A DNA stretch of 64,000 nucleotides from Methylacidimicrobium sp. AP8 (GTDB lineage: Bacteria > Verrucomicrobiota > Verrucomicrobiia > Methylacidiphilales > Methylacidiphilaceae). The notes under the pieces are model-generated. The model searched no databases. It saw only the letters and a list, made by a program, of their open reading frames with translations, and had not been told where the DNA came from. The position numbers and the translations under genes are program-made. Shown piece after piece: positions 28,225 to 58,690 of the stretch. Position 1 is the stretch's first letter; each line of letters opens with the position of its first letter. The stretch is taken from positions 806,001 through 870,000 of the forward strand of contig NZ_LR797830.1 in NCBI RefSeq assembly GCF_903064525.1. Direction: 5' to 3'.

Positions 28225-28407
28225 CCTTTCCTATGGCGATGACCCGGGGGGCCGGCGCGCCGCCCGCCCGCCGGGAAGCGGCCGAGGAGCCGCGGAAGCC
28301 GGCTCCGAGGCGCGGATGCGGGCACCTCTTCTCCCGCGAAAAGCCGAGGGGGCGTTTCCGGCCGTGCGGTACGGAAAAGGGAAAAAATCGGCGCCCGGCC
28401 GCGCGCC

Positions 28408-28455
28408 CGAGCCTATTTGCTGCGCCTCGCCTGCGAAATTTGTGAGAGATGGCGG
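28408..28455 (+). repeat. Relic of the MITE right end (copy E)
   Basis: The segment GCCTATTTGCTGCGCCTCG ... GAAATTTGTGAGAGATGGC matches the right third of the MITE copies at 39647, 49508 and 58510 with several changes. The left end is missing and there is no target duplication. It lies in the 230-base gap between the permease and VanZ genes, right against the VanZ stop; nothing else is visible in that gap. Confidence 0.5.
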
Positions 28456-38384: not shown

Positions 38385-39646
38385 ATGCATCGGCTCAACA
38401 AGAAGCGGCCGATCAGATGGGCTTGGTTCGGCCTCCTCGGGACTGGTTCTGGCCGGCTGCGTGCCCACGCCGAAGATCGCCTTGCGCCCCGATCCACCCG
38501 GAGAGGCGCTCGGGCGGCAGCTGGCTGCGGATGCCGCGTTGTATCCGAAGCCTGCCGGTCCGGGCAACCGGGTGAATCTGCTGGCCGACGGCATGCGGAC
38601 CTTCGAGGCGATGTTCGCGGCGATGGAGCGGGCCGGAGCCCACATCAACCTCGAATATTACCTCTTCGAGGATCTCCAAGTCAGGCCGAAAAGCCTGGGC
38701 TATCTTTTGCAGGAGAAGCTCCGGTCCGGCGTGGCCGTGAAGATCATCCTGGACGGCTACGGCTCCTACCGGACCAGCCCCGCTTTTCTTGGAAGGGCTG
38801 CGACGGGCGGGGGCGCGGATTCTCGTCTTCCGGCCGCTCATCCCGGAGGCGATGCTTGGGGTGAGCCGGAGCAACGATCGCGACCACCGGAAGATCCTCG
38901 TGGTCGGCGGGAAGGTCGGCTTCGTCGGGGGCGTCAACTTGGCCCGGGTTTACCGGAATTACTCCGATCTCCGGGCAGCCGCGCGGGGGGACTTCCGGCA
39001 CGCCGATTGGAGCGATATCGCCGCCCGCATCGAGGGGCCGGCGGTGGCCGATCTCCAGCGGCTCTTCTTTGCCGCTTGGACGAGCCGGCACGGGCCGGCG
39101 GTGGAGAAGAGAAACTATTTTCCAAAGGTCGCGGAGGCGGGGAGCGAACGGGTCCGGGTGGTCGGCAGCGGACCCGGGCGCGACGAAGCGCTCTATTAAT
39201 GAATAGAAGCTTGCTCGAGGCGATCCACCTGGCGCGTCGGAGCGTGGATCTGTGCACCGGCTTTTTCGTTCCCATTCGACAGGAGGTCAAGGAGCTTGCC
39301 CGGGCGGCCCGGCGCGGCGTTGCCCTCCGGTTGGTCCTACCCTCGCCGGTCAACGACCGCGAGGTGCGCGCGGCGGGACGGGCCGATTACGGGCGACTGC
39401 TCAAAGCCGGAGCAAGGATCTGGGAAGTGGGGGGGGCGGTGCTCCATGCGAAGTTCGCCACGATCGACGGGGCCTGGAACTCGGTAGGGTCCTCGAACAT
39501 GGATCGGAGGAGCGTCGTCTACAACGATGAGGTCGATGCGATCATCTTCGGCGGGAATACGGCTGCGGCCGCACGGACGCTCATCGAGGAGAACATCGCC
39601 CGCTCCAGGGAGGTCACGCTCGATACTGGGCACCACCGGGACTTAG
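38385..39646 (+). pseudogene. Second phospholipase D-like lipoprotein, several frameshifts and MITE-truncated
   Basis: The paralogue of the preceding gene lies in pieces. MHRLNKKRPIRWAWFGLL starts at 38385. After a shift near 38435 the lipobox LVLAGC and FEAMFAAMERAGAHINLEYY follow. One extra T near 38790 moves to the frame with HRKILVVGGKVGFVGG. About five extra bases near 39197 create TAA and TGA before the frame with HAKFATIDGAWNSVGSSN. In the first HKD motif, the usual Asp (VVDGK) is Gly (VVGGK). The C-terminus is replaced by the MITE inserted after 39646. This is a dead gene. Confidence 0.8.
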
Positions 39647-39830
39647 CGGCCATTTCTCACAAGCTTTCTCCTACGGCTTGCAAAAAACGGGCTCGTCTGC
39701 TTCGCTCCCGCTTGGTTTTCCATCCTCGCAGTATGTCTTCATACAGCTCCGGTGGAAAACCTGCGCCCGCCTCGCACCCAAGCCCATTTGCGGCGCCTCG
39801 GCTACGAAATTTGTGAGAAATGGCCGTTAG
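39643..39830. mobile_element. MITE copy A with TTAG target duplication
   Basis: A 180-bp element (39647-39826) with termini CGGCCATTTCTCACAA and TTGTGAGAAATGGCCG, perfect 16-bp inverted repeats. It is flanked on both sides by TTAG (39643-39646, 39827-39830), a non-palindromic 4-bp duplication that shows insertion. It interrupts the 3' end of the second PLD gene. It has no coding capacity. Confidence 0.85.
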
Positions 39831-49503: not shown

Positions 49504-49687
49504 CTAGCGGCCATTTCTCACAAGCTTTCTCCTACGGCTTGCAAAACGGGCTCGTCTGCTTCGCTCCCGCTTGGTTTTCCATCCTCGCAGTATGTCTTCA
49601 TACAGCTCCGGTGGAAAACCTGCGCCCCTCGCACCCAAGCCCATTTGCGGCGCCTCGGCTACGAAATTTGTGAGAAATGGCCGCTAG
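49504..49687. mobile_element. MITE copy B with CTAG target duplication
   Basis: A 176-bp element (49508-49683) with the same 16-bp inverted termini as copy A and nearly the same interior. CTAG flanks it at 49504-49507 and 49684-49687. The right CTAG is also the left flank of the IS1182 element. Confidence 0.85.
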
Positions 49688-51234
49688 CAGCTTGTCGGGG
49701 TTAATGCGAGAGAGCCGCAATGGTTGCGAAACCTCCCTTCCGGGGTGGCAAGAATTTTCCTGCCGAAGCCCAAAAGCGCAGAAGTCGAGACCGCAACCAG
49801 CGCGCCGAGGAGGGTGGAGAGCGAGGCGATGCTGGGAGATCCGGTAATCCCTCCTTGGCTAGGCCCGATTCGGCGTCCTCCCATAAGCTTCCAAAGGCGC
49901 TTGAAGTTGTACGCCAAGCAGACCAACGACCATTCGCCCTGGACTTTGGCTTGCCCGCGGAGCCGAAACGCTCGGAAGCCCATCACCGATTTAATGATGC
50001 CGAAGACTGGTTCGACGGTCTGCTTGCGTCGAGCATAAAGGCGGCGGCCGTCCGGGCTGGCGAGCTTTTCGATCATCTTCCGTCTCCACGGGGCGGTATA
50101 TTCAACAGGCTTCTCCCGACGACGATCGGCGGGTCGGAACTCGTATCGCCGACGACATTCCAGAGCTTCAGCCCTCATCGCACAGTAGACTTCGATTCCC
50201 TCCGCCTGCAGAGCCTCGACCTGTTCGCCATTGGCATAACCGGTGTCCACCAGCACTGCACGGACCCGACCGGCTTCCGTAGGAATGGCCCGCACGTCGG
50301 CTTCCAACTCGCCGATGTCGTTGGCGCAGACGCTCACCCGAGCCGAAAGCACCAAGGCACTCCCGTCCGCATCCACGGCCGCCTGCGCATTGTAGCTCTG
50401 TTCAAAGGCTTCGTTTCGGCTCCTGCGCATCAGCCGGCTCTCGGGATCGGTCAGGTTGGCTTGCTCCTCCGCCCCAGGCTTCTCCTCCGGAGGGTGGATA
50501 TGCCGCCCTTTGGCACTCCCCTTGCGCGCTTCCCGTTCTTTTCCCTTCCGCTCGTAATCCGCACGCTCCCGCTCCGCTCGCTCCTTGGCCCGTTCCTCCA
50601 GCCGGCGTTGCGCTTCCTCCAGCTTTGCCTGGAGCCGCTCCCGCCGACCAATCTCCTCAGGTAGCTTGCCCGGATCCGCTTCCTCTCTCCGGTCCGCTTC
50701 CTCCGCCCTCTTCAAGAGATCTGCCACATCCGCCCGCAGAAGCTCCACCAGTTCTCCGGCCCGCTCGTAGGTCACATTCCGATGCTTGCTCGCGTTGGCC
50801 CGAATCTTCGTCCCGTCGACACTCACCCCCCCGACCTTCAAAAGCTTCATCTCCCGGGCCAACTCCAAGACCTTCAAAAAGCAGTCCGCCACCGCAGCAA
50901 AGTTCTCCCGCCGAAACCGGCAGATCGTGTCGTGATCCGGATGGGTGTTCGCACAAAGATAACGCACCGCCACATCCCGCCGCGTCGCCGCCTCGATCCG
51001 TCGACTCGAAAAGATCCCGTTGGCGTAGCAATAAATCAAAAGCGAGAGCATCATCGACGGCGGATACTGTGCGTCCCCAGTCCCGCGTACGTTCACCCGA
51101 AAGCCCCGCAGATCCATCCTCTCCACCGCCTCGATGACAAAATGCACCAAGTCGTCCTCCTCCACCCAATCTCGCAGGTCCTCGGGCAAAAGCATCGGCG
51201 TCATCCGATCCACCGTCACAAATCGCTCAGCCAT
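49684..51234 (-). CDS. IS1182-family transposase
   Basis: About 516 residues. The N-terminal VEEDDLVHFVIEAVERMDL and YPPSMMLSLLIYCYANGIFSSRRIE match IS1182 transposases. The DDE core is seen in VGGVSVDGTKIRANASKH, ALVLSARVS through VRAVLVDTGYANGEQVEAL, and VEPVFGIIKSVMGFRAFRLRG with the catalytic Glu. A long charged coiled-coil insertion (EEAQRRLEERAKERAERE) sits in the middle, and a C-terminal tail reads through the left end of the IS. The stop TAG at 49684-49686 lies in the CTAG target. ATG 51234 follows AAGAGGG; 51249 is also possible. The frame is intact. Confidence 0.92.
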   Translation of the reverse strand: MAERFVTVDRMTPMLLPEDLRDWVEEDDLVHFVIEAVERMDLRGFRVNVRGTGDAQYPPSMMLSLLIYCYANGIFSSRRIEAATRRDVAVRYLCANTHPDHDTICRFRRENFAAVADCFLKVLELAREMKLLKVGGVSVDGTKIRANASKHRNVTYERAGELVELLRADVADLLKRAEEADRREEADPGKLPEEIGRRERLQAKLEEAQRRLEERAKERAERERADYERKGKEREARKGSAKGRHIHPPEEKPGAEEQANLTDPESRLMRRSRNEAFEQSYNAQAAVDADGSALVLSARVSVCANDIGELEADVRAIPTEAGRVRAVLVDTGYANGEQVEALQAEGIEVYCAMRAEALECRRRYEFRPADRRREKPVEYTAPWRRKMIEKLASPDGRRLYARRKQTVEPVFGIIKSVMGFRAFRLRGQAKVQGEWSLVCLAYNFKRLWKLMGGRRIGPSQGGITGSPSIASLSTLLGALVAVSTSALLGFGRKILATPEGRFRNHCGSLALTPTSC

Positions 51235-51282
51235 GCCCTCTTTTACCATATTCCAGAAGGAAAAGGAAAGTCCGACAGGCTG
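49688..51282 (-). mobile_element. IS1182-family insertion sequence
   Basis: A 1595-bp element with imperfect inverted ends: CAGCTTGTCGGGGTT on the left and, read inward, CAGCCTGTCGGACTT on the right. It is flanked by CTAG at 49684-49687 and 51283-51286. Copy B of the MITE abuts the left CTAG and degenerate copy D follows the right one. Confidence 0.85.
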
Positions 51283-51286
51283 CTAG

Positions 51287-51417
51287 GCGCCATTTTTCCG
51301 CTTGGTTTTTCCTGCCCGCAGTATTCTTCCTGCAGCTCCGGTCGAAAACCTGCGCCGCGCCTTCCCACTCAAGCCTATTTGCGGCGCCTCGGCTACGAAG
51401 TGTGTGAGAAATGGCGG
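51287..51417. mobile_element. Degenerate MITE (copy D)
   Basis: This begins GCGCCATTTTTCCGCTTGG and ends GTGTGAGAAATGGCGG, keeping the middle (GCAGTATTCTTCCTGCAGCTCCGGT) and GCGGCGCCTCGGCTACGAAG of the MITE. About 45 bases of the left part are deleted and there is no flanking duplication. It starts right after the right CTAG of the IS1182 element. Confidence 0.7.
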
Positions 51418-58505: not shown

Positions 58506-58690
58506 CTAGCGGCCATTTCTCACAAGCTTTCTCCTACGGCTTGCAAAACGGGCTCGTCTGCTTCGTTGGGCTTGGTTTTCCATCCTCGCAGTATGTCTTC
58601 ATACAGCTCCGGTGGAAAACCTGCGCCCGCCTCGCACCCAAGCCCATTTGCGGCGCCTCGGCTACGAAATTTGTGAGAAATGGCCGCTAG
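58506..58690. mobile_element. MITE copy C with CTAG target duplication
   Basis: A 177-bp element (58510-58686) with the same 16-bp inverted termini as copies A and B, flanked by CTAG (58506-58509, 58687-58690). It lies 7 bases after the katG stop and 28 bases before the stop of the convergent secreted-protein gene. Its interior differs slightly from the others (CTTCGTTGGGCTTGG). Confidence 0.85.

Follow-up and report, generated by a model that had tools for sequence, protein, structure and literature searches.

The host genome, a single contig of 2,300,970 bp (2.30 Mb) from an acid-loving methanotrophic bacterium of the genus Methylacidimicrobium, harbors a real and recently active MITE family, a new example of an ordinary kind. 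Three full-length copies and decayed relatives lie in the window, that is, the entire 64-kb stretch analysed here (genome positions 806001-870000; Table 1). The MITE structure, combined with mobilisation in trans by the transposase of a resident IS1380-family insertion sequence (IS) at YTAR targets, is the best explanation of the observations and very probably the right one.

Table 1. Features of the window, in window coordinates
Feature	Position	Strand	Remarks
Decayed half of a MITE relative	28384..28455	+	81% identity over 70 bp
PLD/cardiolipin-synthase-like ORF	38461..39816	+	PF13091 match; TIGR04265 match below cut-off
TTAG target duplication left of copy 1	39643..39646
MITE copy 1, 180 bp	39647..39826	+	2-bp A insertion; inside 3' end of cardiolipin-synthase-like gene
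TTAG target duplication right of copy 1	39827..39830
CTAG duplication left of copy 2	49504..49507
MITE copy 2, 176 bp	49508..49683	+
CTAG common to copy 2 and adjoining IS1182-family IS	49684..49687
IS1182-family transposase ORF, 521 aa, P0001	49684..51249	-
IS1182-family IS	49688..51282	-	NF033551 337.6 bits; neighbour, not driver
Decayed, internally deleted MITE relative	51287..51417	+	85% identity over 119 bp
CTAG duplication left of copy 3	58506..58509
MITE copy 3, 177 bp	58510..58686	+	GTTGGG interior variant
CTAG duplication right of copy 3	58687..58690

In all three copies, the terminal 16 bp form perfect inverted repeats (TIRs) that read exactly CGGCCATTTCTCACAA, and in copies 2 and 3, the inverted match extends to 20 bp once CTAG is counted in. 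The earlier note had described these copies at 39647, 49508 and 58510, with 16-bp inverted ends, TTAG on both sides once and CTAG on both sides twice, and a visible 4-bp YTAG duplication, all of which read as stated; of the interiors of about 177-180 bp that it reported, the size stands for the entire element (176-180 bp), the stretch between the TIRs being 144-148 bp. With up to 3 mismatches, the window contains 8 TIR matches, whereas 0.45 would be expected and none of 100 shuffles gave more than 2, so that a chance origin of the ends is excluded. The decayed half-element retains a right end, CCGCCATCTCTCACAA, on the minus strand, and the internally deleted relative adjoins the end of the IS1182 element opposite copy 2. 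The MITE is predicted to fold, over its whole strand, into a single long imperfect hairpin, with an RNA minimum free energy of -88 kcal/mol (z = -10.2) and a z of -8.9 for DNA, in line with the suggestion of the earlier note that the entire element can fold.

Genome-wide, the pattern of the ends, with up to 2 mismatches allowed, yielded 104 matches, compared to 2 for the reversed control pattern, and in a DNA search of the host genome, the best 40 of 71 candidates were scored, at 94-100% identity. Resolution of 52 host matches produced at least 45 full-length MITE copies and several fragments, a genome-wide search for the ends being the check that the earlier note had proposed; because only 40 of the 71 candidates were scored, 45 is a lower bound. 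The full-length copies are 176-183 bp long, within the range of about 30-300 bp that defines a MITE, and apart from a chance open frame, they hold no coding region of gene size. Among the resolved copies, there are 35 distinct sequences, and nine copies are identical over 178 bp. With indels ignored, twelve copies equal the consensus (0% distance) and the most diverged one differs from it by 14%, so that the amplification is recent: a burst, judged from these sequences, on top of older, decayed copies. Two pairs of copies have matching outer flanks on one side (genome positions 80927 with 802243, and 1324499 with 2197873), which suggests duplicated segments or insertion into another repeat, so that not all 45 copies are independent insertions.

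The earlier note had allowed that duplications might be missing at most sites; instead, identical 4-bp flanks surround 34 of the 45 full-length copies, whereas re-dealing the right flanks among the copies gave a mean of 13.3 identical pairs and a maximum of 22. The duplicated tetranucleotides are CTAG (20 copies), TTAA (6), TTAG (3), CTAA (2), and CTAT, TTGA and TGAA (1 each). Thus, YTAR accounts for 31 of the 34 duplications, whereas only 9% of the NTAN tetranucleotides that the window contains are YTAR (p about 6e-29), and the YTAR-type reading extends from the copies in the window to the family as a whole. Against the background of window sites, the palindromic forms CTAG and TTAA are favoured over TTAG and CTAA (odds ratio 3.8, p = 0.009). 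CTAG itself is scarce, with 37 occurrences in the window compared to about 204 expected from base composition, a more than fivefold depletion; TTAG, CTAA and TTAA are likewise depleted.

Comparison with relatives supplied the empty sites that the earlier note had proposed to look for. Copy 1 interrupts the PLD/cardiolipin-synthase-like gene at codon 395, replacing the native C-terminus of the protein (FFASFWRFLM*) with a tail of about 57 residues that the MITE encodes; the native reading frame resumes past the element, and joining the flanks in silico restores a C-terminus ending in LGERMNEFFASFWRFLM. In six of six congeners, this site is empty and the protein ends with FFA[S/T]FWRFLM. Judging from the sequence, loss or change of function of the host protein is possible. 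The copy 3 locus is also empty in six of six congeners, with both flanks syntenic. At a third locus, that of the copy at genome position 1400922, the alignments of the flanks to two congeners break off just before the junction.

A search of the host genome for DDE_Tnp_1 transposases produced 42 matches, and motifs resembling the MITE end recur at the edge of one group. The copies in this group can be aligned along about 1,710 bp, where they are 97-99% identical, and have the left end CCCCCATTTCTCACCA (in variants, two with CGGCC and one with CCGCC) and the right end CCCCGATTTCTCACCA or variants thereof. The transposase belongs to the IS1380 family (NF033539, 395.3 bits, cut-off 180; PF13701, 507.4 bits, cut-off 34.7), and at least 4 of the host copies retain intact transposase reading frames. 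The left ends match the 16-bp MITE TIR at 13 to 15 positions, with 15 of 16 in the two copies that have the left end CGGCCATTTCTCACCA; the exact MITE end (CACAA) is absent from all host IS1380 copies. Thus, the search for an IS sharing the inverted repeats of the MITE, as envisaged in the earlier note, found a close match but not an exact one. Eight of the nine IS1380 copies with both ends have identical, TA-centred 4-bp flanks (CTAG, TTAG, CTAA or ATAG). The core ATTTCTCAC recurs unchanged, mostly beside YTAR, in IS1380 elements from the congeners and from Acidobacteria metagenome-assembled genomes; at one IS1380 locus of the congener G006 (L087), the ends and flanks equal those of a locus in M. 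tartarophylax 4A (L118). On sequence grounds, the IS1380 family is the only autonomous element found whose ends and duplication match those of the MITE, and the transposase most likely acts on the MITE in trans, given the matching ends and the common target rule.

Under this scenario, the fold-back MITE of about 178 bp, which lacks a transposase gene, would rely on the transposase of the 1,710-bp IS copies. The enzyme would recognise the core ATTTCTCAC together with the outer variants CGGCC, CCGCC or CCCCC, excise the element, and insert it at 4-bp, TA-centred YTAR sites, mostly the palindromes CTAG and TTAA, with duplication of those 4 bp. The AlphaFold2 model of the transposase (pLDDT 85.6) produced seven PDB matches at E <= 1e-3, all to Tn5 or piggyBat transposases, with overall TM-scores of 0.3-0.45, so that the connection is at the level of the fold only. 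Both Tn5 and piggyBat are cut-and-paste transposases that form hairpins, and a similar Tn5/piggyBac-like chemistry may, on the strength of the model, apply to the MITE. The IS1380 family has been paired with eukaryotic piggyBac (PMC10045372, PMC5718144), and both are described as duplicating 4 bp and having CC..GG termini (PMC10045372). Likeness between the MITE and the IS is confined to the termini, with a longest exact match of 11 bp and unrelated interiors. For this reason, we rejected the idea that the MITE arose simply by deletion of the IS interior; it may have captured its ends, or its age may be such that the parent can no longer be recognised.

Besides the unrelated interior and the lack of an exact end match, one more feature runs counter to an IS1380 driver: the dominant MITE end starts with CG rather than with the CC quoted for the family, and the amplified host subfamily is CG..CG, not CC..GG. 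The outer end of this subfamily, CGGCC, is nevertheless present on two host IS1380 copies, which thus begin with CG on the left; most IS1380 ends are CC..GG. Among the 60 genomes searched, MITE relatives were found exclusively within the genus Methylacidimicrobium, mostly at 84-92% identity in G006, up to 90% in a second congener (G003), and weaker in four others, with none in the searched genomes outside the genus. Most congener MITE ends are CCGCC, like those of the congener IS1380 copies, and CC termini at one or both ends are found in most congener copies and some older host copies. In two congener copies (L045, about 1501-1662, and L041, about 1500-1677), both ends are altered together (CCTGTCTGTCTCAC / CCTGCCTGTCTCAC; CGGCCAGTTCTCAC) and the interior is unchanged, which suggests, as far as these two sequences go, that the two ends evolve in concert. 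In G006, a MITE-type end lies at a TTAA inside a decayed IS1380 copy (L098, about 2011), probably a nested insertion. Viral carriage was also considered and dropped, the end pattern having 0 matches in IMG/VR.

Two other IS families were considered as drivers. Elements of the IS5 group use YTAR targets, and the earlier note had, for this reason, hinted at an IS5-like transposase; the likeness to IS1380 ends would then be coincidental. Yet, no IS5 element with the MITE TIR was found among the 30 DDE_Tnp_1 loci examined out of the 42 matches: near-matching termini that are true ends at these loci belong to IS1380 copies, and those beside IS1182 copies are abutting MITE or IS1380 sequences. Given that the matching ends and the like 4-bp duplications are found on IS1380 elements instead, we regard an IS5 driver as extremely improbable. 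The IS1182-family element adjoining copy 2 has a hardly better, very poor claim: it is a physical neighbour that follows the same target rule (CTAG/YTAR), 5 of the 10 host IS1182 copies examined abut a MITE or IS1380 end, and a trapped member of the family yields 4-bp duplications (PMC3281130). However, its ends, CAGC[C/T]TGTCGG with CTAG on both sides, are unrelated to CGGCCATTTCTCACAA, on which account it was rejected, and no IS1182 relative was detected in four congeners (G001, G002, G004 and G005), each of which has at least weak MITE relatives. The stop codon of its transposase gene sits in the CTAG common to the IS and copy 2.

The remaining alternatives concern the MITE sequence itself. 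The very stable fold and a few base pairs compensated from one species to another (4 of 62) would suit a conserved structured RNA gene or an immobile regulatory element, the possibility of an RNA gene having been raised in the earlier note, but RNAalifold gives an unfavourable covariation term (+1.29 kcal/mol), the copies are dispersed with target duplications, and relatives lack the element at both informative loci; no Rfam match to the MITE reached the gathering score, tRNA being the sole Rfam match in the window. We rejected the RNA gene and assign this reading almost no likelihood. That the mobile element has additionally gained a host role, for example, as a transcription terminator or an mRNA-stability element at gene ends, is less far-fetched but still unlikely. 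It would be consistent with the strong hairpin and with the location of the copies, most of which lie outside predicted genes, many of them where two genes converge or at a stop codon. Only 10-11 of 44-45 copies lie inside predicted genes, compared to 50 of 87 background YTAR sites (p = 0.0002), although the gene calls behind these positions are approximate, coming from a small hexamer model for which long ORFs in the window served as training set. Nine of 44 copies lie on a stop codon, compared to 6 of 87 background sites, a weak signal (p = 0.04) from a hand-read count with one IS1182 artefact left out. The copies do gather mainly outside genes, probably because most in-gene insertions have been selected out, and purifying selection alone predicts such avoidance; YTAR contains stop codons, and duplication of a TAG or TAA stop leaves the gene intact, which provides a simple neutral niche for the MITE.

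Three IS1380 copies abut a MITE, with the CTAG in common (genome positions 328381, 469827 and 1939216), and MITE-made CTAGs are common to both IS1380 and IS1182-family copies. It is conceivable, albeit doubtful, that the MITE acts as a target dispenser, its CTAG duplicates serving as neutral landing pads that IS1380 and IS1182 elements use preferentially. If so, each insertion would set a CTAG duplicate beside a long palindrome, and MITE-CTAG-IS-CTAG-IS arrays would arise in a CTAG-depleted genome.

Correia elements (CREE), TIMEs and other bacterial MITEs are likewise short, with TIRs, fold-back RNA or DNA and target duplication, and Correia elements are multicopy as well. For many of the bacterial MITEs on record, the duplicated target is TA, and TIMEs combine Tn3-type ends with 5-6 bp duplications (PMC4133298), whereas the present family duplicates YTAR and has IS1380-type ends. 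MITEs linked to the IS5 family have a similar YTAR-type target, but here the ends and the resident transposase are of the IS1380 type. Compared to the IS1380 elements themselves, with their eukaryotic counterpart piggyBac, the MITE has the same TIR core and TA-centred 4-bp duplications but no transposase, an unrelated interior, and the CGGCC/CACAA end variants. Within mainly open literature, ISfinder being outside its scope, we recognised no paper that ties a MITE to IS1380, and at the level of titles and abstracts, none that describes IS1182 CTAG targets as observed here or such MITEs in verrucomicrobial methanotrophs.

The significance of the finding is that it connects a MITE family that is recent, high in copy number and fully bounded with IS1380, in a genus of methanotrophs where congeners supply the empty sites. 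Excision by piggyBac leaves no scars, and this family could be used to test both the preference of IS1380 for palindromic YTAR and piggyBac-like scarless excision.
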